From an uncultured Oceanisphaera sp. (lineage in GTDB: Bacteria; Pseudomonadota; Gammaproteobacteria; Enterobacterales; Aeromonadaceae): 64,000 nucleotides of DNA. The DNA is taken from positions 62,001 through 126,000 of the forward strand of contig NZ_CANLZU010000011.1 in assembly GCF_947495715.1 (NCBI RefSeq), read 5' to 3'. Each line of letters begins with the position of its first letter. Position 1 is the first letter of the stretch. Below the pieces are notes generated by a model. That model was not told the origin of the DNA. It was given only the letters and a program-made list of their open reading frames with translations, and ran no database searches. The position numbers were made by a program, and so were the translations under genes. Shown in pieces: positions 17,020 through 63,195 of the stretch.

Positions 17020-18984
17020 ATGTCCCGGCAACTTGCCCCCTTGTGGCGCCCCTCTCCCGCCCGGATAAAACGCAGCCAGCTGTATGAGTTCATGCAACAG
17101 GCAAACCGCCGCTACGGACTCGAGCTGACCGACTATCAAAGCCTGCATGCCTGGTCGGTGCAGGACAGTGCCGCCTTCTGGAACCTAGTGTGGGACTTCG
17201 CCGAGGTAGTGGGTGAAAAGGGTGAGCAGCCGGTGCTGAACGCCGCCAGCGCCCGTGACGCGGTCTGGTTTCCCGAAGCCCGGCTTAACGTTGCCGAAAA
17301 CCTGTTGCGCCATGCCACAACACACCCGGATCAAGCTGCCCTGCTGTTTATGGCCGAGGGGCAAAATGAGCGGAGCCTGAGCTGGAGTGAACTGACCGAA
17401 CAGGTGGCGGCCATTCGTGCCGGTCTGGAGCACGCCGGTATCAAACCCGGTGATGTGGTAGCCGGTTACCTGCCCAATCTGCCGGAAACCCTGGTCGCCA
17501 TGCTGGCCACCACCGCACTGGGGGCAATCTGGACCTCGACCTCCCCCGACTTCGGTGCCGACAGCGTGATAGAACGCTTCGGTCAAACCCGGCCAAAGGT
17601 ACTGTTCAGCGCCGACGGTTATCGTTACAACGGCAAGCGGCATGACACCGGCGACAAAGCCAGAGCCATAGTCGCGGCCATCGACAGCATCGAACACTGG
17701 GTGAAAATCCACTACCTGGGGGCAGACCAGCCTGACTCCGACGACAGGGTGCAACACTGGTCTGAATGGCTGCGCCGCCACGCCGGGCAGCCGCTGCATT
17801 TTACTGCCATGCCCTTCAACGCGCCGCTCTATATTCTGTATTCTTCGGGTACCACCGGCCAGCCCAAGTGCATAGTGCATTCGGCCGGCGGCATCCTGCT
17901 CAACCATCTGAAAGAACATCGGCTGCATTGCGATATTCGCCCCGGCGACAGGGTATTCTATTTCACCACATGTGGCTGGATGATGTGGAACTGGCTGGTC
18001 TCGGCACTGGCCAGCGGCGCCACCCTGCTGCTTTATGAAGGCGCGCCTTTCTTTCCCGATGGCAAGGTGCTGTGGAACTGGGCCGAAAAAACGGGCATGA
18101 CCCTGTTCGGCACCTCCGCCAAATACCTAGAAGCCATGGAAAAGCAGCGGATTCATCCGCGTGACCACCATTATCTGGGGGCCCTGCGCACCCTGTGCTC
18201 CACCGGCTCGGCCCTAGCGCCCGAACAATTCGACTTTGTTTACCGGCGCATCAAGTCCAATCTGCAGCTGGCTTCCATCGCCGGCGGCACCGATATCTGT
18301 GGCTGCTTCGTGCTCGGCAACCCCATCAGCCCGGTTTATCGCGGCGAGTGTCAGGGCATTGGTCTGGGGCTGGATGTGCGGGTGTACGACGAACAGGGCC
18401 GGCCCTTGCTGGAACAGCCAGGCGAGCTGGTCTGTTGCAACAGCTTTCCCAACCGGCCGGTGGGGTTCTGGGGCGACGATGACGGCAGCCGCTATGACGC
18501 CGCCTACTGGCAGACCTACCCGGGCTGCTGGCATCACGGTGACAGAGTGGCGTTGACGGTACACGGCGGCATGGTGTTCTATGGCCGCTCGGATACGGTG
18601 CTCAACCCGGGTGGCGTGCGTATCGGTACCGCCGAAATCTATCGTCAGATCAGCCGCTTCGAGCAGGTAGCGGATGCGGTGGTGGTGGGTCAGCACTGGC
18701 ACAAAGATGAGCGGATATTGCTGTTCGTCAAACTGGTCGAGGGCGAGCGGCTGGACGGCGCACTGAAAGCGGCCATTTGCCGACGCATTCGCAACCAGTG
18801 CAGTCCGCGTCATGTGCCGGACAAAATACTGGCCGTGACCGATATTCCCAGAACCCGGTCGGGCAAGACGGTCGAACTGGCGGTACGCAATGTGGTGGAA
18901 GGCAAGCCGGTAAAAAACATCGGTGCCCTGGCCAACCCACAAGCACTGGAACTGTTCCGCAATCTGCCCGATCTCAAGGAGTAA
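17020..18984 (+). CDS. Acetoacetyl-CoA synthetase
   Basis: A 654-residue ANL-superfamily acyl-CoA synthetase. The phosphate-binding loop is YSSGTTGQPK near residue 270, and the closing lysine motif is SGKTVELAV. Length and N-terminal domain (W-R-P-S-P-A-R-I) match acetoacetyl-CoA synthetases. It activates the acetoacetate released by the preceding pathway so that it can enter central metabolism. ATG 17020 has GGAGG five bases upstream; a GTG at 17014 is less likely. Its TAA stop codon is also the first three bases of repeat copy A. Confidence 0.92.
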   Translation: MSRQLAPLWRPSPARIKRSQLYEFMQQANRRYGLELTDYQSLHAWSVQDSAAFWNLVWDFAEVVGEKGEQPVLNAASARDAVWFPEARLNVAENLLRHATTHPDQAALLFMAEGQNERSLSWSELTEQVAAIRAGLEHAGIKPGDVVAGYLPNLPETLVAMLATTALGAIWTSTSPDFGADSVIERFGQTRPKVLFSADGYRYNGKRHDTGDKARAIVAAIDSIEHWVKIHYLGADQPDSDDRVQHWSEWLRRHAGQPLHFTAMPFNAPLYILYSSGTTGQPKCIVHSAGGILLNHLKEHRLHCDIRPGDRVFYFTTCGWMMWNWLVSALASGATLLLYEGAPFFPDGKVLWNWAEKTGMTLFGTSAKYLEAMEKQRIHPRDHHYLGALRTLCSTGSALAPEQFDFVYRRIKSNLQLASIAGGTDICGCFVLGNPISPVYRGECQGIGLGLDVRVYDEQGRPLLEQPGELVCCNSFPNRPVGFWGDDDGSRYDAAYWQTYPGCWHHGDRVALTVHGGMVFYGRSDTVLNPGGVRIGTAEIYRQISRFEQVADAVVVGQHWHKDERILLFVKLVEGERLDGALKAAICRRIRNQCSPRHVPDKILAVTDIPRTRSGKTVELAVRNVVEGKPVKNIGALANPQALELFRNLPDLKE

Positions 18985-19477
18985 TCCCTATCTGAATAAA
19001 GATCTGATCTTTCTCAAGCCCGAACTCAGAGGCAACACAGCCGGCTCCCACGACACGCCATTTAGCCTTGCCACTCGCTGTTTCAGCCTACTGCGAACAT
19101 TCACTGGATGTTCGGTCAGGCTGAAACAACTCGTTACGGCAGCAAGCTGCCCCATGGGGGCTCGGAAATGCCGTCTGACCGCCAGGGACGGCGGGAATGC
19201 CGGAACGGCAGGAGCATTTTCCGGCCCTGGCATTTCATGGTCGTGGGAGCTCGTCTCTGTTGCTTCTTTTTGAGTCCCGAGTTGCCTGCAGACAGCACCA
19301 ACAGATGACTCTGCTGTATCAAGGAGGACAAAGGGATCTGCTCAGCCGACCCTCCGCGCCACGGATGGTGCGGCTGAGCCCCCAAGGATGGGTTCACGGC
19401 GAGTAGGCGGGGCGGACCCTTTGTCCGACCTTTGCAGAACAACCGAGCAGATCTGTTATTTAAGCTGTTTGGCATTA
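18982..19477. repeat. Dispersed paired GGA-loop element, copy A
   Basis: A 496-bp member of a five-copy family that fills the whole gap between two convergent genes. Left end TAATCCCTATCTG is a degenerate form of TAATACCAATCTG; right end is TTGGCATTA. Left module (sense on minus): outer stem CTCCCACGAC/GTCGTGGGAG at 19045-19054 and 19240-19249. Its AAATGCC/GGCATTT hairpin (from 19166) has the loop split by about 50 bp that carry another hairpin, CCGCC-AGGGAC-GGCGG (19179-19194, GGA on plus). Right module (plus): outer stem GGACAAAGGG/CCCTTTGTCC (19326-19335, 19417-19426), CCGCGCC-ACGGAT-GGTGCGG (19354-19373, one G-U pair) and CCC-AAGGAT-GGG (19381-19392). Both outer ends coincide with the stop codons of the flanking genes. 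Confidence 0.85.
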
Positions 19478-19960
19478 CCACCTGTGTCCGGACGGCGGGG
19501 CAATCACCCGATAACCACGCTGATAGGAACGATAGTAATTACCGCCGTGGTAGTAATAGGGATCACCACCCAGGTTGAAGCTGACATAACCACCGGGCAG
19601 GCCATGCACTATGGTACCCAGAGGCAGGGTCACCGAGATATGTGCTCGCGAAGAACGGTGCTCACGATAATAGTGACGGGGCGGCTGATAATAATACTGC
19701 TCTACCACCCTTGCCCTGCGCGGAGCGTACCGATAGTGACGATGATGCCTGTGATGCCGAGCGTGTTTACGGTGCTTGAAACGCTTGCCGTAGTGCTTGC
19801 CATAGTACTGATTCTGGTGCCTGTCGTAGCCCTGCTGGTATCCTCGGCCATCACCGCGCCCCTCTCTGTCTGCCAGCACCTGCGGTGCCATCAGGCCAAA
19901 GGTCAGCGCCCCGAGCAGAGGCAACAGCCATCGACGACGTTTGAAAAGTTGCAGTATCAT
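19475..19960 (-). CDS. Secreted histidine/tyrosine-rich protein (DUF6515-like)
   Basis: A 161-residue exported protein. A basic N-terminus and hydrophobic stretch (WLLPLLGALTFGLMAP) lead to a predicted signal cleavage after A-D-R or nearby. Residues 45-95 are extremely rich in His, Tyr, Arg and Lys. The C-terminal domain contains LPGGYVSFNLGGDPYYYHGGNYY split by glycines and ends YRVIAPPSG, the pattern I associate with DUF6515 proteins. The His-rich stretch could bind metal, which is inference. Its stop codon TAA lies inside the terminal TTGGCATTA of repeat copy A. Confidence 0.7.
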   Translation of the reverse strand: MILQLFKRRRWLLPLLGALTFGLMAPQVLADREGRGDGRGYQQGYDRHQNQYYGKHYGKRFKHRKHARHHRHHRHYRYAPRRARVVEQYYYQPPRHYYREHRSSRAHISVTLPLGTIVHGLPGGYVSFNLGGDPYYYHGGNYYRSYQRGYRVIAPPSGHRW

Positions 19961-20126
19961 GGGTGTCTCCTCCTCTTGACAACTATCGGCATGGGGTAAC
20001 CGATGAGTGTGGAGATACCTTGATTATGGGCCAGATCCAAAGATAACGACAGCCCGGCCTGACCTTGATGGTCAGCCTGTATCAGGAGTAATCGAGAGCT
20101 ATTGCCCCGTTTGACTCACGTTGTGC

Positions 20127-20339
20127 TTATTGATCGAGAAAACGTCCCTGCAGCATTTCACGCTCACGCTGACATTCGGCCAGATAGATGGCGGCAACAA
20201 CGGCAGAGTGAGTGTGATAATCATCAACGGCTTTGGATACCATTAATTCCAGTGTCTTGTCATTCTTGGCCATGCGAAATTTACGCAGCCAGTAAAGCTT
20301 GTCGGTCAATTCCCGATCAAGGGTGTTTTCTTCTATCAT
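20127..20339 (-). CDS. Small conserved-type protein of unknown function
   Basis: A 70-residue acidic/basic mixed helical protein (KLYWLRKFRMAKNDKTLELM, AECQREREMLQG). The size and helical character faintly recall Hha/YmoA-type modulators, but the alignment is too weak for a call. ATG 20339 is chosen over an upstream ATG at 20408; neither has a strong ribosome-binding site. It lies downstream of nothing obvious on its strand and follows trpS with a terminator between. Confidence 0.5.
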   Translation of the reverse strand: MIEENTLDRELTDKLYWLRKFRMAKNDKTLELMVSKAVDDYHTHSAVVAAIYLAECQREREMLQGRFLDQ

Positions 20340-20418
20340 AGATGGGAAATAATCCAGTGAAGTTATCGAACCGGTGAGACTGTCGGTTCGGCAAAATAAT
20401 CGAAACAATGAAACCGTC

Positions 20419-20441
20419 GAAAAAGGAGCCTTGACGGCTCC
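20419..20441 (-). terminator. Terminator of the trpS operon
   Basis: GGAGCC, five-base loop, GGCTCC, then five T residues on the minus strand, nine bases after the trpS stop. Confidence 0.8.
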
Positions 20442-20449
20442 CTTAAGTA

Positions 20450-21457
20450 TTAACGGCTTTTGGGTACAAAGCCAATCACATCATATACCTTTTCCAGGGT
20501 CTGTACAGCTTTCGCCCGGGCCTTGTCGGCACCCAGCGTCAGTATTCTGCACAGCTCTGTCTCGTCTTCACGCAGCTCGTGAAAGCGGCGCTGAATCGGC
20601 TCCAGCATGGCGAGTACCGCTTCGGCCGTCTCGGTTTTGAGGTGGCCGTACATCTTGCCTTCGAAGTGCTGTTCCAGCTCGGGAATGGAGCGACCACTGG
20701 CACCGGCCATCAGCGTCAGCAGATTGGAAACCCCCGGCTTGTTTTCCACATCGAAACGTACCACTGGCGGATCTTCGGAATCGGTGACCGCCCGCTTGAG
20801 TTTCTTGGCGATGACCTTGGGGTCTTCCAGCAGTCCGATGAAGTTGTTGACGTTGTCGTCGGACTTGGACATCTTTTTGGTCGGCTCCTGCAGGCTCATG
20901 ATGCGCGCGCCGTCTGCGGGAATGAAAGGCTCGGGCACGGTGAACACCTCACCGTAAAGCTGATTGAAACGGTAGGCCACGTCCCGGGTCAGCTCCAGGT
21001 GCTGCTTTTGATCGTTACCTACCGGAACCTGGCTGGTCTGGTACAGCAGTATGTCCGCCGCCATCAGCGCCGGATAGGTGAACAGGCCGGCGTTGATGTT
21101 TTCGGCATAGCGGCTGGACTTGTCCTTGAACTGGGTCATGCGCGACAATTCGCCGAACTGGGTATAACAGTTCAGAATCCAGGAAAGCTCCGCATGCTCG
21201 GGCACATGCGACTGCACGAAAATGGTGCTCTGGGCCGGATCCAGGCCGATGGCCATATAAAGTGCCGCCGCATCCAGACAGGCCGATCGCAGTGCTTGTG
21301 GGTCCTGACGGACGGTAATGGCATGCATGTCCACGATGCAGTACAGGCAGTCGTAGTCCTGCTGCATCTTCACCCACTGGCGCAGGGCGCCCATGTAGTT
21401 GCCTATGGTCAGCTGCCCGGAAGGCTGGGCGCCACTGAAAACAATTGGTTTAGCCAT
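20450..21457 (-). CDS. trpS: Tryptophanyl-tRNA synthetase
   Basis: A 335-residue class I aminoacyl-tRNA synthetase. The HIGH-type motif is PSGQLTIGN (residues 12-20) and the KMSKS motif is present exactly as K-M-S-K-S near residue 195. Length matches E. coli TrpS (334). It charges tRNA-Trp. ATG 21457 has AAAGGA upstream and overlaps the end of gph by 8 bp. It is the last gene of the dam-rpe-gph-trpS block, as in enterobacteria, and is followed by an intrinsic terminator. Confidence 0.97.
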
Positions 21458-22163
21458 GATTATCCTTTCTGTGTTCATTTTTTAGCAACAGGTCGAGCAG
21501 CCCGCGAATATCGCTCATCACCCGGTCCGGGTGGCTTTCGGCAATATCCCGGCCGTAGTTGTAACCATAAGTCAGACCCACCACCGCCATGCCGGCCGCC
21601 TTGGCCGCCAACACATCATTTTCGGAATCGCCGATCATCAGGGAGCGCGCCGGCGTGATATTCAGCTCACGACACACATGCAGCAGCGGGGCCGGATCGG
21701 GCTTTTTCTGCGCCAGGCTGTCACCGCCCAGCACCAGCGAGAAGTAATCGCTCAGATCCGCCGCCGCCAGAATGGCAGGAACAAAGCGGTAGGGCTTGTT
21801 GGTGACGATAGCCAGCGTCTTGCCGGCCTGGTGTAACTGATGCAGGGTATCCAGCACACCGGGATAAAACACCAGCTCGTGCTCGGCTACCCCTTCATAG
21901 GCAACGTCGAACGCCGCTCGCGCTTCTTGCTGCTGTGTGGCGTCCGGCTCGCATTCGAGCGCATTGATGAGGGCGCGACGCACCAGCATGTCGGCCCCGT
22001 TACCCACCCAATGGCGTACCGCCAGCTCGTCTGCCGACACATGGCCCAGCTGTTCCAGCATGCGGTTTACCGCCAACGCCAGCTGGGGCACGCTGTCGAT
22101 CAGGGTGCCGTCCAGATCGAACTGGATAAGCTCGATGTTATCCACGAACGCTGGCCAGTTCAT
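21450..22163 (-). CDS. gph: Phosphoglycolate phosphatase
   Basis: A 237-residue HAD-superfamily phosphatase. Motif I is FDLDGT with nucleophile Asp16 and Asp18; motif II lies in LAIVTNK; motif III/IV is [10 protein letters not shown] followed by [11 protein letters not shown]. It removes phosphate from 2-phosphoglycolate formed in DNA repair. It overlaps rpe by 26 bp and trpS by 8 bp, so the three genes are tightly coupled. The long rpe overlap makes the ATG at 22163 slightly uncertain, but the next internal Met would remove motif I. Confidence 0.95.
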
Positions 22164-22812
22164 TGCGCATTCGGTCGATCACCGTCTTGTAGTCGGGCTG
22201 GCTGAAGATGGCGGAGCCGGCCACAAACATGTCGGCACCGGCCTCGGCGATGGCACGAATATTGTCGACCTTGACGCCACCGTCGATTTCCAGCCGAATG
22301 TTGCGACCGCTTTCATCGATGCGACGACGAGCCTGACGCAGCTTGTCGAGGGTGCCGTCGATAAAGGACTGGCCGCCAAAACCGGGGTTGACCGACATCA
22401 GCAGGATCACGTCCACCTTGTCCATCACGTAATCCAGGTAGCTCAGCGGCGTAGCCGGGTTGAACACCAGGCCGGCCTGACAGCCCTGCTCCTTGATCAA
22501 CCCCAGGGTGCGGTCGATATGATCGGACGCCTCGGGGTGAAAGGTGATAATGGAGGCGCCGGCCTCGGCAAACTGGGGCACCAGGCTGTCTACCGGCTTG
22601 ACCATCAGATGAACATCGATGGGCGCCTGAATGCCGTAGTCGCGCAGCGCCTTGCACACCATGGGGCCTATGGTCAGGTTGGGCACATAATGGTTATCCA
22701 TCACATCGAAGTGCACCACGTCGGCGCCCGCTTGCAGCACCTGGGCCACGTCGTCACCCAGGCGGGCAAAGTCGGCAGAAAGAATAGAGGGGGCAATCAG
22801 GTAATCGGTCAT
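22138..22812 (-). CDS. rpe: Ribulose-phosphate 3-epimerase
   Basis: A 224-residue TIM-barrel enzyme beginning [15 protein letters not shown] with the catalytic Asp in the first strand. Metal and catalytic residues appear in [14 protein letters not shown] and the C-terminal [11 protein letters not shown] and FVAGSAIF segments. It interconverts ribulose-5-phosphate and xylulose-5-phosphate. ATG 22812 follows AAGGGAAC. Between it and dam lies a small gene on the opposite strand, so rpe may need its own promoter here. Confidence 0.96.
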
Positions 22813-22917
22813 CAAAGTTCCCTTGAGCGCAAAAAACCGTCCAATTCTACCCCAGTGCCCGGTGATTCTCTAGCAAGCCGTCTATGCTTGGCTGACATTC
22901 GCCAGGACGAGGAAATG

Positions 22918-23097
22918 ATGAGCTGGAAACACAGGCTACAGGCGGTGGCGGCGGCGCTGTTCGGGGTGCAGTCACAAAAGAACCGGCAGCAACAGTTCAG
23001 CGGCAGCCCCTGGCCCTATCTGGGCCTGGGGGCACTGGCCATCGTCGGGCTGGTGCTTGTCTTGCTGCTGGTGGTACGGCTGGTGCTTGATATCTGA
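22918..23097 (+). CDS. DUF2970 small membrane protein
   Basis: A 59-residue protein: a short basic N-terminus with the family signature A-A-L-F-G-V-Q-S-Q-K-N-R-Q-Q-Q-F, then S-P-W-P-Y and one hydrophobic helix to the C-terminus. This matches DUF2970, a family of single-pass inner-membrane proteins of unknown role. GAGG lies five bases before ATG 22918 and only two before ATG 22915. It is encoded on the plus strand between dam and rpe, both on minus, so it interrupts an otherwise co-directional block. Confidence 0.82.
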   Translation: MSWKHRLQAVAAALFGVQSQKNRQQQFSGSPWPYLGLGALAIVGLVLVLLLVVRLVLDI

Positions 23098-24015: not shown

Positions 24016-24067
24016 CAAAGCCTAACCGGTGAAGGGCGCGCATTGTAACCTCAAGCCAACCCCATGA

Positions 24068-34631: not shown

Positions 34632-35081
34632 TTATACCAAACAGATTAAATAACTGATCTATTTGGTGGCTCTGTACAAGTCGGATAAAAGACCCGCTCC
34701 TCCGACACGCCGTGAATACCTCCATGTAGGCTCCGCCGCGCCGTCCTTGGCGCGGAGGGTCGGCGGAGCAGATCCCTTGATCCTCCCTGATGCCAGCGAG
34801 TTACCTGTTGGCACCGTCTACAGACAACTCGGTATTTGAGAAGAGGCAACAGAGATCAACTCCCACGACCGTGAAATGCCAGGGACGGCATTTCCGAGCT
34901 TAGATGGGGCGAGCTTGTCTCGCGTGATGAACTGTTTTGGCCTGACCGAACATCCAGTGAATGTTCGCAGCAGGCTGAAACGGTGAGTGTCATTTATCAG
35001 TGGCGTGTCGTGGGAGGTGGCTGTGTTGCCTCTGATCTCAGATTTAAATTAATGATCAGATCTTTATGCAAATTGGTATTA
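34632..35081. repeat. Dispersed paired GGA-loop element, copy B
   Basis: A 450-bp copy, inverted relative to A, between convergent mrcA and oxyR. Ends are TTATACCAA (34632-34640) and TTGGTATTA (35073-35081), so the TACCAA inverted ends are flanked by TTA on both sides, a possible 3-bp target duplication. Module with sense on plus: outer stem CTCCCACGAC/GTCGTGGGAG (34860-34869, 35007-35016), hairpin AAATGCC-AGGGAC-GGCATTT (34874-34893) and a second arm with palindrome GAACATCCAGTGAATGTTC (34948-34966). Module with sense on minus: CCGCGCC-GTCCTT-GGCGCGG (34736-34755) and TAC-CTCCAT-GTA (34717-34728), showing AAGGAC and ATGGAG loops on the minus strand. The oxyR stop codon lies inside the right end. 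Confidence 0.87.
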
Positions 35082-35972
35082 CAGCAGCCCCTTGATCAAC
35101 TGGCTGATCACCTTGGCCATTTCATTGAAACAGGGGCGGCGCACCGAATGAATACGATACAGCAGAGAGATGGTGCGGTGGGGCTCGGGATTCACTACCG
35201 GCAGGTAACTCACCCCCAGATTGCCATTGTGCAAACCAACCGCCAGCTGAGGGATCAGGGTCAGCCCCGACCCTGCCGCCACCATGTTGCGCAGGGTTTC
35301 CAGGCTGGTGGCCTGAAAATGGTTGTCTTCACCGATACCGGCGGCAAAGCAGAAACCCATGGCCTGATCCCGCAGGCAATGGCCGTCTTCCAGCATCAGC
35401 AACTTTTCTCCCTGCAGCTCGTTCAATGCAATCTGTTCACGACCGGCCCAGGCATGCTCGGTCGGCAACGCCAGCATCATTGGCTCGTCATATAATGGCA
35501 AGGAGCCGAAGTTATCCATGCTATCGAGCTGAGCCAGGATCAGGCAGTCCAGATCGCCGTCGGCCAGTTGCTTCAGCAGGGTATGGGTCTGGGCTTCGTA
35601 CAGGTAGATGTGCAGCTCGGGGAAATGCTGTTTCAGTACCGGAATGATATGGGGCAGCAGATAAGGGCCGACGGTCGGGATCAGGCCGATGTGCAACTCG
35701 CCCGACATCGGCTCGGTAAAGGTGCGGGCGGTATCGCGCAGTTCCTTGGTTTCTGCCAGTACTCGGCGGGCCTGGGCGGTAATGGCGTCACCGGCCGGGG
35801 TAAACAGCACCTTGCGCGAGGTGCGTTCCATCAGCACCACGCCCAGCTCGTCTTCCAGCTTGCGCAGCTGGCCGCTCAGGGTCGGTTGACTGACAAAACA
35901 TTTTTCCGCCGCCTTGCGAAAGTGGCGCTCTTCGGCCAGCGCCACCAGATATTCCAGATCCCTTAAATTCAC
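35079..35972 (-). CDS. oxyR: Hydrogen-peroxide regulator OxyR
   Basis: A 297-residue LysR-type activator aligning without gaps to E. coli OxyR over its first 208 residues. The redox cysteines Cys199 and Cys208 are both present in L-E-D-G-H-C-L-R-D-Q-A-M-G-F-C-F. The winged HTH is SQPTLSGQLRKLEDELG. The start is a GTG at 35972 (M-N-L-R-D-L-E-Y-L) after GGGGAAG; the frame stays open to 36011. The C-terminus is about eight residues shorter than in E. coli and ends exactly where repeat copy B begins (TAA within TTGGTATTA). The genes upstream are redox enzymes probably under its control. Confidence 0.95.
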   Translation of the reverse strand: MNLRDLEYLVALAEERHFRKAAEKCFVSQPTLSGQLRKLEDELGVVLMERTSRKVLFTPAGDAITAQARRVLAETKELRDTARTFTEPMSGELHIGLIPTVGPYLLPHIIPVLKQHFPELHIYLYEAQTHTLLKQLADGDLDCLILAQLDSMDNFGSLPLYDEPMMLALPTEHAWAGREQIALNELQGEKLLMLEDGHCLRDQAMGFCFAAGIGEDNHFQATSLETLRNMVAAGSGLTLIPQLAVGLHNGNLGVSYLPVVNPEPHRTISLLYRIHSVRRPCFNEMAKVISQLIKGLL

Positions 35973-45076: not shown

Positions 45077-45443
45077 TTATACCAATCTGTAAAACTAACT
45101 GATCTATTTGGCTGCCCCGAAAAGGTCGAACGAAGGGTCGACTCCACCGACACGCTGAACCGCATCCCTGCGACGCTCAGCACATGACGTCCTGTCATGT
45201 GATGGTCGGTAGAGTTGAACCCTTCATCCGCCCCTCTGCTGCGGCGTCGCCTGTGGGAGCGCCCTGCAGACAACTCAGTACTTGAGGAGAGGCAACAGAG
45301 ATCGGCTCCCGCGACCGTGAAATGCCAGGGATGGCATTTTCCGAGCCCCCATGGATGGGTTTACGGCGTGTCGCGGGAGGTGACTCTGTTTCCTCGAGTA
45401 TTCAGTTTTAAACTAGATCATATTTTTACTTAGATTGGTATAA
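45077..45443. repeat. Dispersed paired GGA-loop element, copy C
   Basis: A 367-bp copy with perfect 12-bp inverted ends, TTATACCAATCT (45077-45088) and AGATTGGTATAA (45432-45443), between convergent Tim44-like and deoB genes. Plus-sense module: outer stem CTCCCGCGAC/GTCGCGGGAG (45306-45315, 45370-45379), a compensatory A-T to G-C change relative to the other copies. It encloses AAATGCC-AGGGAT-GGCATTT (45320-45339) and CCC-ATGGAT-GGG (45348-45359). Minus-sense module: CACATGAC-GTCCT-GTCATGTG (45181-45201, five-base AGGAC loop on minus) and CGC-ATCCCT-GCG (45161-45172, AGGGAT on minus), within a longer outer stem (45135-45151 with 45205-45222). Confidence 0.88.
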
Positions 45444-49965: not shown

Positions 49966-50407
49966 TTAATACCAGTCTAATTAAGCATCTGACCATCTTT
50001 TAAGCCCTAACTCCAGAGGCAACACAGCCACCTCCCACGACACGCTACGAGATATGACACTCATTGTTTCAACCTACTGCGAACATTCACTGGATGTTCG
50101 GTCAGGTTGAAACAATTCGTCGCGGCAAGACAAGCTTGCCCCATCTAAGCTCGGAAATGCCGTCCCTGGCATTTCACGGTCGTGGGAGCCGTTCTCTGTT
50201 ACCTCTTTTTGAACTCCGAGTGGCCTGCAGACGATGCTAATAGACGATGCCGGTGCATAAAGGAGGACAAAGGGATCTGCTCAGCCGACCGTCACATGAC
50301 AGGGATGTCATGTGCTGAGCGCCACAGGAATGTGCCTGAAGCGGGTCGGCGGAGCGGGCCCTTTGTTCTAGGATTATACGTCCATCAAACAGCTCTATTG
50401 TTTAATG
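49966..50407. repeat. Dispersed paired GGA-loop element, copy D
   Basis: A copy of about 442 bp in the A orientation, between prfC and yjjV (both minus). Left end TTAATACCAGTCT (49966-49978); the right end stops at TTTAATG, lacking the final GGATTGGTAT. Left module (sense minus): outer stem CTCCCACGAC/GTCGTGGGAG (50032-50041, 50179-50188), hairpin AAATGCC-GTCCCT-GGCATTT (50155-50174, AGGGAC on minus) and the palindromic arm GAACATTCACTGGATGTTC (from 50081). Right module (plus): outer stem GGACAAAGGG/CCCTTTGTTC (50265-50274, 50359-50368, one G-U), CACATGAC-AGGGAT-GTCATGTG (50293-50314) and CAC-AGGAAT-GTG (50323-50334). The first right hairpin contains ACAGGGATGT, an exact match to the CsrA SELEX core as I recall it. 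Confidence 0.87.
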
Positions 50408-50437
50408 AAAAAAAGCCCCGGCACAAAGGCCGGGGCT
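50408..50437 (-). terminator. Terminator of prfC
   Basis: AGCCCCGGC / GCCGGGGCT nine-base-pair stem with a six-base loop and seven T on the minus strand, 20 bp after the prfC stop and immediately before repeat copy D. Confidence 0.9.
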
Positions 50438-55684: not shown

Positions 55685-55741
55685 CCACGAAAAAACTGGC
55701 CGGCAACCCGGTAACTAACGGGCCACGAGCCGGTTTATGAC

Positions 55742-55769: not shown

Positions 55770-55770
55770 G

Positions 55771-57255
55771 TTACAGCATTTCGGCCCGGCTGCTCAGATG
55801 CAACCGACGCCGCAGCCGTCGCGCCAGCGAGTCCACCAGCATGTTCAGTCCGGCACAGACCAGCAGCAGCACCATGGCCCGGTCGAAACGGAATTCGCTG
55901 AATGCCGAGTCGATAAAAAAGCCCAGCGTCGGAATGCCCAGCATGCCGAGGATGGCGGTTTCCCTAATCAGATTTTCGAAGCGATACAGGCTGTAGGCCA
56001 GAAAGGCCCGGTACAAACGGGGCAATACCTCGAAGCAATACAGATTAAGCCCCCTGGGCGCGTCTTCACGCAACGTCAGGGTATTGAGGTGATGGCCGAG
56101 CAGGTGAGCGATGATGGCGCCGTTATGCAGCCCCAACGCCAGCACCGCCGGCAACATGCCCGGCCCCAGCAGCAGCATGCCGATAAAGGCCAGCAGGTAT
56201 TCCGGCAAGGAGCGCATCAGCACCAGCCAGCCATGGCTGCCGGCGCGGGTCAGGCCATTGCCGAAGCGGCGTGAAATCGCCGGAAACCACAACAGCGCCA
56301 GCACGCCGGTCACCAGCAGCGCCAGCATGGCCAGCACCAGGGTATTGAACAAACCGGGCACGATTTGCTGCAGCCACAGCTCCTGCAGCCAGGGCAGCAG
56401 CCCGGCCCAGTCACCGTTGCGCAAGGGCGCAGGCACCACATCTTCGGTAAAGAAGCGCGCCATCAGCGACCCGTTCAGGCTGGCCACCGGCGGCAGCCAG
56501 AGCAGCGATGCCAGCAGATACAGCGGCACCAGCCTGGGCCTTAACCACCACTTGAGGGTAGCGATAAGCAGCACCAGGGCATAAAAGAAGCAGGCCGCCT
56601 CACCGTAATAGCCCTGCCGCAGCAAGGACTCCAGGTGATAACCCAGGGTCGGCAGACCGATAAAGCCCAGCACCGCCGAGCTGCGAATGCCACACTCCAG
56701 CCGGTAGCCGGTATAGGTGGCCATTTGCCGCCAGCACAGCGGCAACTGCACAAACAGCAGCCGCGAGGCCCAGCCCATTCCGGGTTCCAGCGCCTGCTCG
56801 GGTGACGGATCCGCCTCTTCAAACAGCTCGCCGTAGATCTTGGCGAAGGTGCCCGCATAGGGCAGCGCGATGGCCAGCATGCCGGCCGGGGCCGACAGCC
56901 CCAGCAACTGAATGAACAACAGCGCCCAGAACAGCTCGTGCACCGCCCTGAGCGACGCCGACAGCCGCCGAATGGCCGCGTGCCGATAGCCTGCCGCCAG
57001 CCCCAGGCCCAGTACGGCGCCCAGCGCCACGCCCTGCAGGGCAAAAGCCAGGGTGTTGGCGATGGCGCCGCCCAGCGTGGCCAGCGCCGGCAATTGCGGC
57101 TGCAATAATCCGGCGCCCAGCCGGGCAAGCTCACCCCAGGGATCCACCGCCGTGATCGACAAGTCGGCCCAGGGCAGGCACAGCAATGCCAGCAGCACCA
57201 GCAACAGGCTGCTGTGCACCATGGCGCGAGCGGGTTCCGGCCGAGCCTTCAGCAT
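55771..57255 (-). CDS. PhnE-like ABC permease, tandem fused form
   Basis: A 494-residue permease made of two homologous halves, each with its own ATPase-contact (EAA-type) loop: G-I-R-S-S-A-V-L-G-F-I-G-L-P-T-L-G in the first half and I-R-E-T-A-I-L-G-M-L-G-I-P-T-L-G in the second. Single PhnE subunits are about 260 residues and dimerise; here the dimer is fused. It belongs with the ATPase and binding protein encoded upstream. Probable substrate is an oxyanion (see the binding protein). Confidence 0.88.
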   Translation of the reverse strand: MLKARPEPARAMVHSSLLLVLLALLCLPWADLSITAVDPWGELARLGAGLLQPQLPALATLGGAIANTLAFALQGVALGAVLGLGLAAGYRHAAIRRLSASLRAVHELFWALLFIQLLGLSAPAGMLAIALPYAGTFAKIYGELFEEADPSPEQALEPGMGWASRLLFVQLPLCWRQMATYTGYRLECGIRSSAVLGFIGLPTLGYHLESLLRQGYYGEAACFFYALVLLIATLKWWLRPRLVPLYLLASLLWLPPVASLNGSLMARFFTEDVVPAPLRNGDWAGLLPWLQELWLQQIVPGLFNTLVLAMLALLVTGVLALLWFPAISRRFGNGLTRAGSHGWLVLMRSLPEYLLAFIGMLLLGPGMLPAVLALGLHNGAIIAHLLGHHLNTLTLREDAPRGLNLYCFEVLPRLYRAFLAYSLYRFENLIRETAILGMLGIPTLGFFIDSAFSEFRFDRAMVLLLVCAGLNMLVDSLARRLRRRLHLSSRAEML

Positions 57256-57265
57256 ATGCGTTCCA

Positions 57266-57955
57266 TCAACGCCATTGGTACTGGGTGTGCTGCTGATACA
57301 GGGTATGCAGTTGGCCCGCCGTCAGCGTATGGCTGGCGGCATCCAGCACCACTCGCCCCTCGCGCAGACCCACCACTCGCGTGCAGTGAGTGAGTGCCTG
57401 CTCCACGTTATGCAGCGCCAGCACCACGGTGTCGTGCCGGCGACAGATCAGCCGCAACAGCTCGTCGGCCTGGCGCTCGTCCAGTGCCGACACCGGCTCA
57501 TCGCCGATGAAGATGGGCTTTTGCTGATACAGGGCCCGCCCCAGGCTGACCCGGCTCTGCTGACCGCCCGACAGCCGCTCGGCGGCAGCCCATAACTGGT
57601 GTTGCAAGCCCAGCTCCGCCGCCAGGGCGGTAATGTCTGCCTTGGGCTTCGCCAGCGGCCGCACCAGATTGGCCAGGTTGTACCAGAACGGGTGACGATT
57701 CAGCCGCCCCATGTAGATGTTGTGAAAGGCCGACAGCATGGGCACCAGTCCCGGCTGCTGCGGGCACCAGGCCACCTCGGCCGGGCGCAGCTCACGCAAT
57801 CGACGCAGCAGGGTGCTCTTGCCGGTGCCGGACTCCCCCAGCAGGGCCACTTTTTCACCCCGGCGCAACTCGAGCGACAACTCGCGCAGCACCGGGCTGC
57901 CCGCATAGCCGAGGGACTCCTGCCGAAAGCGGAACAGACAGCTGTCGGCACTCAT
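57266..57955 (-). CDS. PhnC-like ABC transporter ATP-binding protein
   Basis: A 229-residue ABC ATPase. Walker A G-E-S-G-T-G-K-S-T is at residues 40-48, the signature is L-S-G-G-Q-Q-S-R, and Walker B is IFIGDEPVSALD. Note a Gly before the catalytic D-E in place of the more usual hydrophobic residue. Its ATG abuts the stop of the binding-protein gene, and the permease follows after 10 bp, so this is one operon. Confidence 0.9.
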   Translation of the reverse strand: MSADSCLFRFRQESLGYAGSPVLRELSLELRRGEKVALLGESGTGKSTLLRRLRELRPAEVAWCPQQPGLVPMLSAFHNIYMGRLNRHPFWYNLANLVRPLAKPKADITALAAELGLQHQLWAAAERLSGGQQSRVSLGRALYQQKPIFIGDEPVSALDERQADELLRLICRRHDTVVLALHNVEQALTHCTRVVGLREGRVVLDAASHTLTAGQLHTLYQQHTQYQWR

Positions 57956-58840
57956 TTACTGGACGGGATCCATGATGCCGATGGCCACGGCGGTGTCACG
58001 AATGGGCGCGTAATCGGCGTTGGTAGCCTTGACGAAGCCGGAACGGGGAAAGGCTGCCAGCAGTGCCGGATCGGTCATTTCCAGCAGTGCCTGCTGTACT
58101 TTTTCCTTGAAGCCATCACCGAAGCGAGCATTCACATCGCCGCGAATGCTCCACTGGTAATCCGGGTAGCTTGGCGTGGACCAGATCACACCGACCTTGC
58201 TGTCGTCGATGTTGCCCTTGGCTTTTTCCGCATCCCACACCGCGTAGTTCACCGCACCCACTTCAAAGGCGCCGGACTGCACCAGGCTGATGGTGCGGTT
58301 GTGATCACCGGAAAAACCGACCCGGGAAAACAGCTGTTCCGGCGCCTGGCCGAAGTGCTGACGCAGGAAGAATTCGGGCATCAGACGGCCGGAGGTCGAG
58401 CCCTTGTCGCCGAAGGTAAAGCGCTTGCCGGCCAGTTCCGCTGGTAACTGCTCACTTGCGGTCAGACCCGTGCTGTGGTGGGCGATGATGTAGCTGACGA
58501 AGGTGGTGTCTTCCTTGCCCTGGGCGATGGCTTCGCTGCCGGGGACCAGTTCGCGTGCCTGCACACCGGTCAGGCCACCAAACCAGGCCAGCTGCACCTG
58601 ATCGTTACGAAAGGCGCTCACCGCCGCCGGGTAGCTCTTTACCGGAATGTACTGCACTTCCACGCCCAGCTTGTCGGTCAGGTAATCGGCGATCTTGCCG
58701 AAACGCTCGGTCAGGTGGCGTTCGTCCTGATCCGGAATGGCGGTAAACACGAAGGGTTCGGCTTGCGCCGGTACCAGGGCACTCAGGCACAGGGCGGTGA
58801 GGCCCAGCAGACGGGTTCGAAGAGCAACGGCAATGGTCAT
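57956..58840 (-). CDS. PhnD-like periplasmic binding protein, putative selenate-ABC family
   Basis: A 294-residue precursor with signal peptide (LLGLTALCLSALVPAQA cleaved before E-P-F-V-F). The mature part starts T-A-I-P-D-Q-D-E and carries V-Q-L-A-W-F-G-G-L-T-G, G-S-T-S-G-R-L-M-P and G-F-S-G-D-H-N-R-T. These segments match, from memory, the family called putative selenate ABC transporter substrate-binding protein, a relative of phosphonate-binding PhnD. No selD, selA or phosphonate lyase gene is nearby, so selenate, phosphite or phosphonate all remain possible. ATG 58840 is preferred over GTG 58846. Confidence 0.85.
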   Translation of the reverse strand: MTIAVALRTRLLGLTALCLSALVPAQAEPFVFTAIPDQDERHLTERFGKIADYLTDKLGVEVQYIPVKSYPAAVSAFRNDQVQLAWFGGLTGVQARELVPGSEAIAQGKEDTTFVSYIIAHHSTGLTASEQLPAELAGKRFTFGDKGSTSGRLMPEFFLRQHFGQAPEQLFSRVGFSGDHNRTISLVQSGAFEVGAVNYAVWDAEKAKGNIDDSKVGVIWSTPSYPDYQWSIRGDVNARFGDGFKEKVQQALLEMTDPALLAAFPRSGFVKATNADYAPIRDTAVAIGIMDPVQ

Positions 58841-58894
58841 GATCACGGGTCCAAAAAATGGGGGGCCCGGATTATAACCGATGACGGGCCCGGA

Positions 58895-59224
58895 TCAGAG
58901 TCCGAACCAGCCATTCATCTGCGTCATATACACCAAAGTGCCGGAAAGAATGCTGAGCAGCGCCTGCCGACGCCACACCTGCAACACCGCCACCACCATC
59001 ACCGCCACTATCTGGGCCCGGCCATCGATCGGGCTGCTCCAGTTGTGTACCCCCATGGCATAGAGGGTCAGCAGCACCATCATCGCCACCGGCAAGCGCC
59101 GTCCCAAAATCTGAATGCGGCGGTGGTGGGCAATGAAGCCCCGCGCCACGAAGGGAAAGGCGCGCAGGCCGAAGGTGACTGCCGCCATGATCAGCGCCGC
59201 CAGCAGATAATCCAGTTCAGTCAT
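58895..59224 (-). CDS. azlD: AzlD-family small transporter subunit
   Basis: A 109-residue protein with three to four hydrophobic segments and the AzlD-type motif T-F-G-L-R-A-F-P-F near residue 20. AzlCD exports branched-chain amino acids or analogues in Bacillus. It overlaps azlC by 8 bp. A direct repeat GGGCCCGGAT flanks the short gap between this gene and the binding-protein gene. Confidence 0.85.
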   Translation of the reverse strand: MTELDYLLAALIMAAVTFGLRAFPFVARGFIAHHRRIQILGRRLPVAMMVLLTLYAMGVHNWSSPIDGRAQIVAVMVVAVLQVWRRQALLSILSGTLVYMTQMNGWFGL

Positions 59225-59891
59225 GGGCGGGCTCCGGTTGTGATTGTGGCCAGGCCAGCAATACCAGTACCAGCATCATAGAGGCCGCCAGCAGGAAGTA
59301 CTCACTTATCCAGATACCGGCAACGGCGGCGGCCACCAGCCCGAGCAAGACCGCTCCCCAGTCACGCCGGGCGCGAATTTGCTCCACCGCCAGCACGGTA
59401 AAGAGTGCGGTCAGGGCGAAGTCCAGCCCCTGCAGTCCCGGCGGCAAGCCACGCGCCAGCACCATGCCGGCCAGGGTGCCCAGCACCCAGTATGACTGAT
59501 TGAACAACACCACCAGCAGCGCGGTTTTGCTGTCGTTTACCTGACCCGGCGCACTAAGCAGGGAATAGGTTTCGTCGGTAATACCGAAGATGAAATAGGG
59601 TCGGCCCAGCACGCCTTTCGGCAACAGGTGATAGAGCGACAGGCCGTAAAACAGATGGCGAAAATTGACCAGCAGCGAGGCCACCGCCAGATCAAGCCAG
59701 CCGATTCCCGCCGACAGCATGCCCACCGCCAGATACTGCAACGCACCGGCATAGACAACAATGCTCATCAAGGGGGCCCAGTACCAGCTGAGCCCGGCAT
59801 CAATCCACAACACCCCGAACACGGCGCCCAGTGGCAAATAGCCCATCATCACCGGCAGGGTGAGCGGCAGTACGCCGCGCCAGCTTGTCAT
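59217..59891 (-). CDS. azlC: AzlC-family amino-acid exporter
   Basis: A 224-residue membrane protein with about seven hydrophobic segments; the N-terminal G-Y-L-P-L-G-A-V-F-G-V-L and W-Y-W-A-P-L-M-S motifs are those of AzlC/YgaZ. With AzlD it should export branched-chain or related amino acids. ATG 59891 is placed nine bases after GGAG; ATG 59909 would add six residues. No Lrp-type regulator is adjacent. Confidence 0.87.
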   Translation of the reverse strand: MTSWRGVLPLTLPVMMGYLPLGAVFGVLWIDAGLSWYWAPLMSIVVYAGALQYLAVGMLSAGIGWLDLAVASLLVNFRHLFYGLSLYHLLPKGVLGRPYFIFGITDETYSLLSAPGQVNDSKTALLVVLFNQSYWVLGTLAGMVLARGLPPGLQGLDFALTALFTVLAVEQIRARRDWGAVLLGLVAAAVAGIWISEYFLLAASMMLVLVLLAWPQSQPEPAHD

Positions 59892-59976
59892 CACCTTATA
59901 CTCCGACATCCATAAGACATTAGAAAATAAGGGTTTTGTCGACGAGTAGCAAGGCGCGACCGCTTAATGGCGTAAA

Positions 59977-61353
59977 TCAGTCGACCGCTTCAGTTTTCTC
60001 CGGAAAGGCCAGCATGAAGGCGGTGCCGCCTTCATCACTTTCCACCTGAACCCGCCCCTCGTGCAGTTGCATGATGGAGCGCACAATCGCCAGCCCCAGA
60101 CCACCGGTATTACCGGAGTTGGTACGGGAAGCGTCACAGCGATAAAAGCGGTCAAACAGCCGTGGCAGGTGCTCGGGGCCAATCGGCGTACCCTGGTTAT
60201 GCACTCGAACCACACAGTGCCCCTGCTCCACCGAACTGCTGATCACCACGGCGCCGCCGGCACGACCGTAACGCAGGGCGTTGGCCAGCAGATTGGCCAA
60301 TGCCCGGCGCAGCAGATCCGGATCGGCCCAGACGGTGCCTTCGGCCTGGTTAAGCAGCAGCATGTCTTCGTCTTCCGCCACGCCTTCAAAATACTCGCAC
60401 AACTGCTCGACCAGCTCGTTCAGATCCAGCGCCTGTCGATTGATCGAGGCCTTGGGTTGTTCGGCACGCGCCAGAAACAGCATGCTGTCGACCATTCGCG
60501 CCAGCCGCTCGTATTCTTCCTGATGGGAGGCCAGCAGGCTTTCGTATTCCTCGGTGGAGCGCGGCTTGCGCAGCGTATGCTCGGTGTGCCCCATCAGGTT
60601 GCTCAGCGGGGTGCGAATCTCGTGGGCCAGATCCTCGGAGAAACGCGACAACTGTTCGAAGCCGCCTTCCAGCCGGGCCAGCATCTGGTTAAGGGTGCTG
60701 CCCAGGGTTTGCAGCTCCTGGGGCAGATGGGCCGTATTCAGCCGACGGTGCAGACGCTGCACATCAATGGTCTCGGCCTGGCGCGCCAGCAGGCGTACCG
60801 GCCGCAATCCGCGCCGGCTGACCAGCCAGCCAAGCATAAAGGCCGCCAGGGCACCGGCCGCCATCGCCAATAGCAGCTTCAGCTTGTAGGCCGCCAGCAT
60901 CTGATTACGGGGCTCCAGCTGTTTACCGGCGATCAGCAGCAGGGGCTGCTGTTCGTATTCCACATAGCGCCAGGCCAGTCGCGCCTGGTGATCTTTATCG
61001 AAACCCAGCTGGGACTGATCACTCTGCCCCAGGGTCGGCAATGGCAGGTCGGCGGGATTCACCGAGATCAGCACCTCGCCTTCAGAATCCAGCACCCACA
61101 GCAGGCTGTCCTGATTGCCCAGCATGTTGGCGTACAGCTGGGGCCGGTTACGCAGGGTGGCAATGCTGTCGCTGTCGCTGAGCAGCGCCTGCATGTGCTC
61201 GAGCCGCCCCAGCAGGCTTTGATCGTCTCGCCAGATCAACTCTCGCTGCAGCGAGTAATACAGATAAAAACCGATGCTGCCGAGCAGCAAAGTGCTCACC
61301 AGGGCAAACATCACCGCCAGCCGCACACTCAGCGACGAACCGATTTTACTCAC
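59977..61353 (-). CDS. hprS: Two-component sensor histidine kinase, HprS/CusS-like
   Basis: A 458-residue kinase: two membrane helices (residues about 11-35 and 160-180) bracket a 120-residue periplasmic domain; then HAMP, H-box [12 protein letters not shown] (His244), an N-box in [12 protein letters not shown], and the G box NTGGLGLAI. The start is a GTG overlapping the regulator stop (GTGA). Divergent linkage of the pair to a hydroxyisourate hydrolase matches E. coli hprSR-hiuH, hence the name. There is no cysteine in either membrane helix or the periplasmic domain, unlike the redox cysteine reported in E. coli HprS. CusS-like metal sensing is the alternative. Confidence 0.8.
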
Positions 61354-62021
61354 GCTCTTACCTCGCACACGTAGCCCATGCCACGCACCGTGTGGATCAG
61401 CTTTTGATCATAGGCATCGTCTATCTTGCCGCGCAGGCGCCGAATGGCCACGTCCACCACATTGGTGTCGCTGTCGAAGTTCATGTGCCAGACCTGAGAG
61501 GCAATGTAGGTGCGTGACAAGACCTCACCTTCGTGGCTGAGCAGCAGCTGCAACAGGGTAAATTCCTTGTTGGTGAGATCGATGCGCTGGCCGCCACGGG
61601 TGACGCGCCGGCTCAATGGCTCCAGTTGCAGATCGGCCAGCTCATACAGAGACACCTCGCGTTGGGGCCCGCGCCGCAGCAGCTTGCGTGCCCTGGCCAG
61701 CAGTTCGGCATAGGAAAATGGCTTGGCCAGATAATCATCCGCGCCCTGCTCCAGCCCGCGCACCTTGTCTTCGACCGCATCGCGGGCACTCAGGCAGATA
61801 ACCGGGGTGTCCGAGGTACGGCGAATGGTTTTCAGCAGTTGCCAGCCATCGAGACCCGGCAGCATGATGTCGAGAATAATGAGGTCGAAGCTCCCCTCTT
61901 CTATCATGTACTTGCCTTCCAGTCCGTCCTTGGCCACTTCCACCAGATAGCCGGACTCGCTGAATCCCTTTTTCAGGTAATCGGCCGTTTTTGGCTCGTC
62001 TTCCACCACTAGAATTTTCAT
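61350..62021 (-). CDS. hprR: Response regulator, HprR/CusR-like (OmpR family)
   Basis: A 223-residue regulator: receiver domain with phospho-acceptor Asp51 in I-I-L-D-I-M-L-P-G and a C-terminal winged helix with [16 protein letters not shown]. It resembles both CusR and HprR, which bind nearly the same palindrome. GAGGAG precedes ATG 62021. An 18-bp site close to their shared box lies between this gene and hiuH at 62107. Confidence 0.87.
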
Positions 62022-62106
62022 CTTCTGCTCCTCTCGCCCGCCGGCTGCTGTTGATGGCGCCGACTGTATCACTCAATACACAAGCCCGGGTAATGCCTCG
62101 ACCCAA

Positions 62107-62124
62107 GATGACAACTTTGTAATC
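62107..62124. promoter_or_regulatory. Candidate HprR/CusR box
   Basis: GATGACAACTTTGTAATC matches the HprR/CusR palindrome (CATTACAAAATTGTAATG, from memory) at 13 of 18 positions, keeping both ACAA and TTGTAAT half-sites. It lies 86 bp upstream of hprR and 150 bp upstream of hiuH, in the divergent promoter gap of 253 bp. Confidence 0.55.
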
Positions 62125-62274
62125 CAGAGGTAATGGGTTTGATATGCCGACTAAGGCACTATGGCTCCATCAAAAGGCAAGCACATCGGCAGCGCGACAA
62201 ATAACCCGTTGCAACCACTGCAGACCACCTTGTCTTATTTAATGTAGAAACTGACGAACCTCAGGAGAAATAAT

Positions 62275-62685
62275 ATGAACAAGCTTAAATCTGTAATGGC
62301 CGGCGTGATGCTGACCGGTGCTTCTACTCTGGCCGTTGCCGCCGGCAACCCGCTGAGCGTTCACGTACTGAACCTGGAAAACGGTCTGCCTTCACCCGGC
62401 GTTCAGGTGGTTCTGGAACAGCAGCAAGGTAACGAGTGGACTCAGCTCAGCACCGGTGTGACCAACGAGCAGGGCCGTATTACCGCCCTGTTCCCCGAAG
62501 GCAAGTCACTGGAAAACGGCAACTACCGCGTGACCTTTGAAACCGGCGAGTGGTTCAAAGAGCACGACACCGCGACCTTCTTCCCTGAAGTACCGGTTAT
62601 CTTCTCTGCCGACGCCAGCGTAGAGCACTACCACATTCCGCTGCTGCTGAGCCCCTACGGTTTCTCTACCTACCGCGGCAACTAA
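62275..62685 (+). CDS. hiuH: Periplasmic 5-hydroxyisourate hydrolase
   Basis: A 136-residue transthyretin-related protein with an N-terminal signal peptide ending A-V-A-A (cleavage before G-N-P-L). Active-site elements are the first His in S-V-H-V-L-N, the Arg in Y-R-V-T-F and the C-terminal tetrapeptide Y-R-G-N; the family consensus is Y-R-G-S/T. It hydrolyses 5-hydroxyisourate, the product of urate oxidation, outside the cytoplasm. AGGAG precedes the ATG. The divergent two-component system probably controls it. Confidence 0.93.
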   Translation: MNKLKSVMAGVMLTGASTLAVAAGNPLSVHVLNLENGLPSPGVQVVLEQQQGNEWTQLSTGVTNEQGRITALFPEGKSLENGNYRVTFETGEWFKEHDTATFFPEVPVIFSADASVEHYHIPLLLSPYGFSTYRGN

Positions 62686-62726
62686 GCCCTGCGGCAACAC
62701 CGAGTTTTGTTTTAACCTGTGTTAAT

Positions 62727-62758
62727 GAAAACACCAGCCTCACGGCTGGTGTTTTTGT
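62727..62758 (+). terminator. Terminator of hiuH
   Basis: ACACCAGCC / GGCTGGTGT nine-base-pair stem with TCAC loop, then TTTTGTTTT, 45 bp after the stop. Confidence 0.9.
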
Positions 62759-62835
62759 TTTAAGCGTTTATACATAGGCCTCAGCCCTGTGGTCTTTTTC
62801 TCCAATGTTATCAACATAATCGGATAGCTGATGTG

Positions 62836-63195
62836 ATACAAATTTGAATAAACATCTGATCATTTTAACCCCGGGTTCAGAAGCAACACAGCCGCCTCCC
62901 ACGACACGCCATGAACTCATCCCTGAGGGCTCGGGAAATGCCGTCCATGGCATTTCACGGTCGTGGGAGCCGATCTCTGCTGCCTCTTTTCGAGCATCGA
63001 GTTGTCTGTAGACGGCGCTAACAGGCAATGCCGGTGCATCAAGGAGGACAAAGAGATCTGCTCAGCCGACCATTCGCGCCACGGATGGCGCGGCTGAGCC
63101 TCCAGGGAGGGATTCACGGCGAGTCGGCGGAGTGGGCTCTTTGTGCGAATTTTATACAAAAGCGGAATAGATCATTTGTTTAATGGGATTGGTAT
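62836..63195. repeat. Dispersed paired GGA-loop element, copy E
   Basis: A 360-bp copy in the A orientation between convergent hiuH and pntB. Left end is degenerate (ATACAAATTTG), right end GGGATTGGTAT. Left module (sense minus): outer stem CTCCCACGAC/GTCGTGGGAG (62896-62905, 62960-62969), AAATGCC-GTCCAT-GGCATTT (62936-62955, ATGGAC on minus) and CTC-ATCCCT-GAG (62916-62927, AGGGAT on minus). Right module (plus): outer stem GACAAAGAG/CTCTTTGT (63047-63055, 63137-63144), a compensatory pair change relative to copies A and D; CGCGCC-ACGGAT-GGCGCG (63075-63092); TCC-AGGGAG-GGA (63101-63112). Confidence 0.88.

Follow-up and report, generated by a model that had tools for sequence, protein, structure and literature searches.

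What kind of element would place paired, GGA-bearing hairpins at one intergenic site after another in a bacterial genome, and what would it do there? The question is raised by a stretch of 64,000 nucleotides from an uncultured Oceanisphaera sp. (contig NZ_CANLZU010000011.1, positions 62,001 to 126,000), which we call the window and which forms part of a 3.65-Mb genome in 82 contigs. An earlier note on this DNA had described five intergenic copies of one element built of RNA-like modules. The copies are real: long direct and inverted repeats interlink all five places, and a covariance model run with its filters off gave ten matches in the window at E<1e-5, nine of them in these five elements and one in a solo module (6085-6162). 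The five elements, here called composites and numbered c1 to c5 along the window, are 359-496 bp long. Each holds two modules of opposite orientation, as the note had said, and we can add that the modules face outwards, with their 5' ends towards the centre and with inverted ends outside them.

Read on the strand that carries GGA, a module opens with one arm of an outer stem (P1). Next come a hairpin (P2), mostly of 7-9 bp and capped by a loop of the form C-[ANGGAN]-G, a GAGC linker and a short second hairpin (P3), again with a C-[ANGGAN]-G loop; a UUYAC-type bulge of five bases and GCG then lead to the P1 arm that pairs with the first. We lean, without great assurance, towards a joint explanation: the composites would be miniature inverted-repeat transposable elements (MITEs) carrying two outward-facing RNA modules of the YPAL type, a dimer of CsrA/RsmA would clamp these modules, and the consequences would be both altered transcripts and a titration of CsrA.

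Fold and loops of the module

Within the window, ANGGAN sites stood on a stem of at least 3 bp in 16 of 26 cases inside the elements, against 10 of 267 outside them. In an alignment of 30 distinct modules, 92.6% of the pair cells were paired (75.1% when shuffled), and 108 cells had changed on both sides of the pair, compared to 30.5 in shuffled and at most 20 in slid alignments. These modules had been chosen for their ANGGAN loops and paired stems, and the model built from them (R1) was trained partly on the window, so the figures for the 30 modules are partly circular; the double-change counts and the tests in other genomes are less so than the pairing percentage. For an independent test we used a 26-base DNA pattern covering the linker, P3 and the tail, but not P2. 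It matched at least 119 loci, of which 80 are listed by name and bear 85 pattern matches (81 with enough upstream sequence), the other 39 being counted separately. At the position of P2, C-A(N)GGA(N)-G was present in 73 of the 81 matches, where shuffles gave about 3 (2.97 and 3.36); the remaining 39 loci gave 41 of 46, against an expected 1.7. The P2 stem was found in 66 of the 81, the GGA of its loop in 63 and the C-G closing pair in 61.

Covariation was measured in two larger alignments. On the 80 named loci the model gave 119 matches (116 distinct), in which all 22 pairs had changed on both sides and the covariation score was 0.748, compared to 0.173 (standard deviation 0.008) for shuffled and at most 0.131 for slid alignments. 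The second set, drawn from 80 regions in other genomes and comprising 103 matches (100 distinct), scored 0.767 against 0.179 when shuffled and at most 0.134 when slid; here double-sided changes affected 22 of 25 pairs, among them those of an added helix beside the bulge, the extra pairs of this set having been suggested by mutual information and by reading. Both alignments were fitted to the structure of the model and therefore lean towards it, a bias which the slid controls answer only in part. With covariation in all three alignments, the selection on RNA structure proposed in the note is borne out, and selection on both the structure and the loops of the module is strongly supported. Could the covariation be a mutational by-product, with palindrome arms copied onto each other during replication and no RNA under selection? 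The outer stems are wholly different between modules yet pair well, as such copying would have it, but this does not account for loops that stay fixed, for the GAGC linker, for a GCG tail that hardly varies or for a covarying pair next to the bulge, and we regard it as very improbable. The lack of kinship among outer stems also raised the thought that the core may have inserted into hairpins already in place. In one locus, from Halopseudomonas pelagia (L143, ~900-980), the P2 hairpin seems inverted, and its loop reads ATCCCT instead of ANGGAN.

The loops themselves were compared among copies from the same genome, fetched by BLAST only and freed of contained duplicates, with either c3 (37 others) or c5 (46 others) as the reference; the copies are related, and the cells counted are thus not independent. 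Relative to c3, the A and GGA of the loops had changed in 4 of 416 cells and the closing C-G in 2 of 203, compared to 90 of 204 at the N positions of the same loops, 662 of 4624 in the rest of the module, 1022 of 4686 in the spacers and 200 of 1465 in the ends. With c5 the corresponding counts were 14/688 (A and GGA), 7/337 (C-G), 166/324 (N), 1038/5173 (rest of module), 1356/5511 (spacers) and 334/1568 (ends). When loci fetched by the model were included, with overlapping fetches of one place possible, they were 5/543 for A and GGA, 2/266 for C-G and 122/267 for N.

A loop that keeps A and GGA fixed and leaves N free follows the published Csr/Rsm rule (PMC4005645): RsmE structures show a fixed core from which the variable N and X are looped out, and the ANGGAX hexaloop placed directly on a stem is the high-affinity form. 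In the module, the ANGGA loop likewise sits directly on a C-G-closed stem with its N free. PMC7652899 gives RUACARGGAUGU as the consensus for CsrA from systematic evolution of ligands by exponential enrichment, and a spacing of 10-63 nt, with an optimum above 18 nt, for two sites bound by one CsrA dimer. The commonest form of P3, UAC[ANGGAN]GUA, fits this consensus, and in all 94 of the modules with two full hexaloops (among 103 modules) 19-21 nt separate one GGA motif from the other, a one-dimer spacing that fits the optimum. The CsrA/RsmA recognition geometry claimed in the note is supported by the pattern of fixed and free loop positions, with binding itself a prediction. Once the GGA strand is transcribed, the RNA would form an outer stem with two hairpins, their C-[ANGGAN]-G loops ~20 nt apart, and a CsrA/RsmA dimer would most likely clamp both loops of one module.

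Mobility and spread

That the composite is mobile, as the note had supposed, is supported by nearly identical dispersed copies, by TNA at the ends and by lineage-specific presence. Elsewhere in the genome c3 has three copies that are 97-98% identical to it. TNA flanks the inverted ends TACCAATC/GATTGGTA in each of 14 fetched copies, and in 11 of the 14 it is the same on both sides; by chance, the middle base alone would agree in 3.5. The TNA of c3 itself is non-identical (TTA and TAA). The TACCAA-type ends described in the note are clean, of the TACCAAT type, at both ends of c3, and degenerate at some of the other ends. Inverted ends, target duplication and near-identical dispersed copies, all features of MITEs, were thus found, and the composites are probably non-autonomous elements that have inverted ends of the TACCAATC type and duplicate 3 bp of TNA when they insert. 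Duplications of this form are reminiscent of IS5-type transposases. At the site of c3 in relatives, one locus (L335) lacks a module, its matched flanks being separated by 81 bp, another (L333) has a different module-bearing insert and a third (L334) a related element; modules were present in four of the 20 loci compared, with only one flank matched in most of the 20.

At the place of the solo module, 21 other species have both flanks but lack a module in between, many having other palindromes there, and a conserved locus was rejected. Such lineage-specific insertion would also suit an explanation in which the protein moving or copying the modules reads their loops in single-stranded DNA or in a cruciform, and the likeness to CsrA sites is a coincidence. 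Template switching could then keep perfect stems of changing sequence; inserts do occur in some of the loops themselves, and the antisense bias described below points in the same direction. However, with inverted ends and TNA of its own the composite should need no loop in order to transpose, yet its loops are its most constrained sites, and their fixed and free positions follow the CsrA pattern. Nor were Y1 transposases significantly commoner where modules abound. Two Y1 matches are present in the genome studied here, and in a hand-chosen sample of 40 genomes with at least seven listed module matches and 40 without a match (G376, G401, G197 and G198 left out), Y1 was found in 34 of the 40 module-rich and 30 of the 40 module-free genomes (p 0.40). 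Over these 80 genomes no significant association with Y1/RAYT transposases was seen. We consider the reading of loops in DNA unlikely.

How far has the module spread? The earlier note had suggested a covariance-model search of this genome and its relatives, and modules were found in both. With R1, the genome contains at least 150 modules (150 of 1673 candidates scored), and 36 of 61 genomes matched: every one of the 23 from the genus, 8 of 14 from the rest of the family and 5 of 24 from the rest of the order. A model named R2 found the module in 75 of 369 genomes sampled from the class. In a sample of the phylum 23 of 299 genomes matched, all 23 in this class, the 299 including an unstated share from outside it. 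The titles of the 80 named pattern loci are gammaproteobacterial, by our own placement of the names, except for three that read only Proteobacteria; the taxa include Stenotrophomonas, Xanthomonas, Microbulbifer, Marinobacter, Pectobacterium, Shewanella and Oceanisphaera. One 126-base query gave no match among the plasmids of PLSDB. Direct arrays of modules were seen in a Saccharophagus metagenome-assembled genome (L128, 3120-3735, four copies ~180 bp apart), in genome G599 (L279, 2501-3715, six copies ~227 bp apart) and in Shewanella abyssi (L188, 297-1243, three copies ~430 bp apart).

Copies in the window and known relatives

All the loops that had been listed for the window are present in it. 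Composite c3 (45077-45443) has clean inverted ends, which agree at 24 of the outer 33 positions; its left module (45140-45218, minus strand) has the loops AGGAC, of 5 nt, and AGGGAT, and its right module (45302-45381, plus strand) AGGGAT and ATGGAT. In c5 (62836-63194) the left module (62894-62973, minus) carries ATGGAC and AGGGAT and the right one (63057-63134, plus) ACGGAT and AGGGAG. Composite c1 (18981-19476) has degenerate ends and approximate borders; its right module (19337-19414, plus) bears ACGGAT and AAGGAT, and in its left module (19149-19236, minus) inserts interrupt both loops, the match to the covariance model being partial (13.9 bits, E 0.4). In c2 (34632-35082) the left module (34695-34772, minus) has AAGGAC and ATGGAG. 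The right module of c2 (34856-34928, plus, 37.8 bits) and the left module of c4 (50121-50192, minus, 33.1 bits) are alike in having an intact first loop, AGGGAC, and a second hairpin interrupted by a long insert. Composite c4 (49966-50409) has a degenerate right end, so that border is approximate, and a right module (50276-50356, plus) with AGGGAT and, in its second hairpin, AGGAAT. Two intact loops are thus found in six of the ten composite modules, counting the 5-nt AGGAC; the remaining four are the one with AGGAAT and the three with inserts. The solo module (6085-6162, minus; AGGGAT and ATGGAT) lies outside the span covered by the note, and its outer stem is unrelated to those of the composites.

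The inserts are of two kinds. One of ~49 bp lies in the P2 loop, between AGGG or ATGG and AC (~19184-19240 in the window; also L006, L008, L010, L014, L031 and others), and has a hairpin of its own, the ANGGAN loop of which reads on the opposite strand. The other, of ~95 bp, lies in the P3 hairpin (~34905-35005 and ~50045-50140; also L004, L028 and L050), and its stems vary among copies with a core like GACCGAAYATCCAGTGAATRTTCGCAG retained. The central spacer between the modules of a composite (e.g. 45215-45300, and more clearly in L009) holds a further inverted repeat of the type TTGCCTG...CAGGCAA.

Is the module related to any known repeat? The closest likeness, absent from the earlier note, is to the YPAL/RU-2 repeats. 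RU-2, as printed in PMC2759123, contains the whole module: an outer stem, CCGCGCC[AAGGAT]GGCGCGG, CTCGAGC, CTAC[ATGGAT]GTA and TTTACGGCG, an exact match to the 26-base pattern. Of six window modules aligned to RU-2, five scored above the maximum of 200 shuffles, from 79 against 29 (34695-34772) to 36 against 33 for the narrowest of them; 50276-50356 fell below it (22 against 25). YPAL is described (PMC2229807) as a mobile, multi-copy, intergenic repeat that may influence how stable upstream transcripts are, and as having target duplications of 3-26 bp and no TA-bounded ends, in contrast to the TACCAATC ends and TNA seen here. RU-2, in its printed form, is one module in ~168 bp, whereas the composites are two back-to-back modules in 359-496 bp; the solo module comes nearer to such a single unit.

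The note had also pointed to the TwoAYGGAY motif (RF01731), a larger stem enclosing two hairpins that have loops of the AYGGAY type; binding to CsrA has already been proposed for it (PMC4333381). The plan is indeed similar, but the best match of the TwoAYGGAY model in this genome scored 28.3 bits, below the gathering cut-off of 43 bits, and the motif is therefore a relative at best. It gave 18 weak matches; the eight that were fetched all lie on modules (one degenerate, L064), and seven of the ten others overlap listed modules. TwoAYGGAY was never reported on a module by cmscan, and at gathering score no Rfam family matched in the window, nor on the modules of 19 of the at least 119 pattern loci. 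Sponge RNAs of the CsrB/RsmZ type are single transcribed genes with many sites; unlike them, the modules are dispersed, mobile and two-site, and neither a terminator (see below) nor a promoter was shown for them, no search aimed at promoters having been made. What they share with these sponges is repeated A(N)GGA hairpins, which in the sponges are bound by a dimeric protein (PMC4005645 and PMC7652899). REP/BIME repeats, which go with RAYT transposases, are alike in being dispersed intergenic palindromes, often in inverted pairs (PMC3733652); the module differs in its conserved loops, its lack of a GTAG foot and the absence of a significant Y1 link. With RU-2 containing the module and TwoAYGGAY scoring below its cut-off, the composite is a new composite form of a known kind of repeat. 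What appears to be new is that the module extends across the class, that the constraint on its loops matches CsrA and that a MITE-like element carries it in divergent pairs; a literature search that omitted most subscription journals found no paper treating both YPAL and CsrA.

Strand, transcripts and a possible role

If the module acts as RNA, G.T should be preferred to A.C in the stems of the transcribed strand. On the GGA strand, 59 non-redundant modules gave a ratio of 21:8 (one-sided 0.012 when tested against equality and 0.021 against shuffled columns). For the outer stems it was 9:2 in the genus (26 non-redundant modules) and 13:8 in the named set. This modestly favours the GGA strand as the RNA. 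A role for CsrA is compatible with the hosts. The genome encodes CsrA (PF02599, E 5.1e-25), and in the class sample PF02599 was found in 70 of 75 carriers of the module and 243 of 294 non-carriers (Fisher one-sided 0.012), or 61 of 62 and 219 of 252 among good-quality genomes (0.0037), by a cross-count done by hand.

Several observations weigh against the proposal of a CsrA-binding RNA read from the GGA strand. The G.T excess is small, the 59 modules were found with a model favouring G.U, there was little or no excess in the inner hairpins (3:3 and 3:1 in the named set, 4:5 in the 59 modules), and swapped-arm controls of the named set also leaned to G.T (33:22, 37:27 and 26:22). A measure of further pair types did not rise above shuffles (82 against 80.2 on the named loci, 76 against 77.2 in the 103 matches). 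The consensus of Ysr224 (RF02770), a Yersinia small RNA, reads as the reverse complement of the module, on the opposite strand, its best score seen being 23.6 against a cut-off of 70. Five of the 75 carriers have no CsrA match, four of them 67-88% complete (G068, G129, G160 and G401) and one 98% complete (G255), and the association between modules and CsrA ignores lineage and genome size. Solo modules between tandem genes were antisense in 48 cases and sense in 21 (two-sided p 0.0016; 122 solo modules in two sets). Finally, terminator-like sites followed the module in the GGA direction in 6 of 152 cases (2.8 when shuffled) and in the other direction on the same side in 12 of 152. The antisense and terminator evidence on the strand therefore disagrees with that from G.T.

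With so few terminator-like sites in the GGA direction, an autonomous RNA gene with its own terminator was not supported, and an intrinsic terminator was also set aside, at least four T in the six bases after P1 being present in 1 of 152, with P1 ends that are approximate because stems often continue beyond an internal loop. In genome G670, two modules (L297 and L298) stand on unrelated long outer stems with ACTTTTTCTTAARCAAAAAA after both, so that in this genome the outer stem may serve as terminator.

The two sets of solo modules were placed among genes with a rough open reading frame caller. One set (78 solo modules) came from 102 of 103 matches; for the other (44) we used 115 of 119 matches, without the four weakest, and excluded eight in called reading frames and 30 lacking two flanking genes, which left 77. 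Together, 32 solo modules lay between convergent and 21 between divergent genes. In the set of 78 the counts were 20 and 10, against a background of 20:36 in the same loci, which is what one would expect if the module were a YPAL-type stabiliser of 3' untranslated regions, where a stable hairpin would delay the decay of mRNA independently of CsrA. In the set of 44 the two were equal (12:11), and a plain hairpin needs neither ANGGA loops with a free N nor their fixed spacing; we hold this explanation to be quite unlikely. The earlier note's two-way element of 3' untranslated regions fits the geometry of the composites, and is at odds with the antisense excess of the solo modules.

We return to the composite as a carrier of CsrA sites. 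With two modules facing opposite ways, transcription from either side gives one readable module. Each insertion would likely attach a CsrA site to passing transcripts and thereby change their decay, and the many module copies together would likely titrate CsrA. It is tempting to extend this to the whole class, although we put it forward more tentatively: across Gammaproteobacteria, a family of mobile repeats, with YPAL as one branch, may spread high-affinity CsrA clamps, here at least 150 per genome, and as selfish DNA would rewire individual transcripts and set the level of free CsrA. Such a proposal joins the YPAL repeats of Yersinia, the orphan idea on TwoAYGGAY and the Csr/Rsm sponges in one testable hypothesis, in which dispersed mobile repeats keep the exact bases that CsrA reads. 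If it is true, data on CsrA binding in carriers may hide a signal from these intergenic repeats, and the copy number of a repeat would be a heritable setting of a global regulator.

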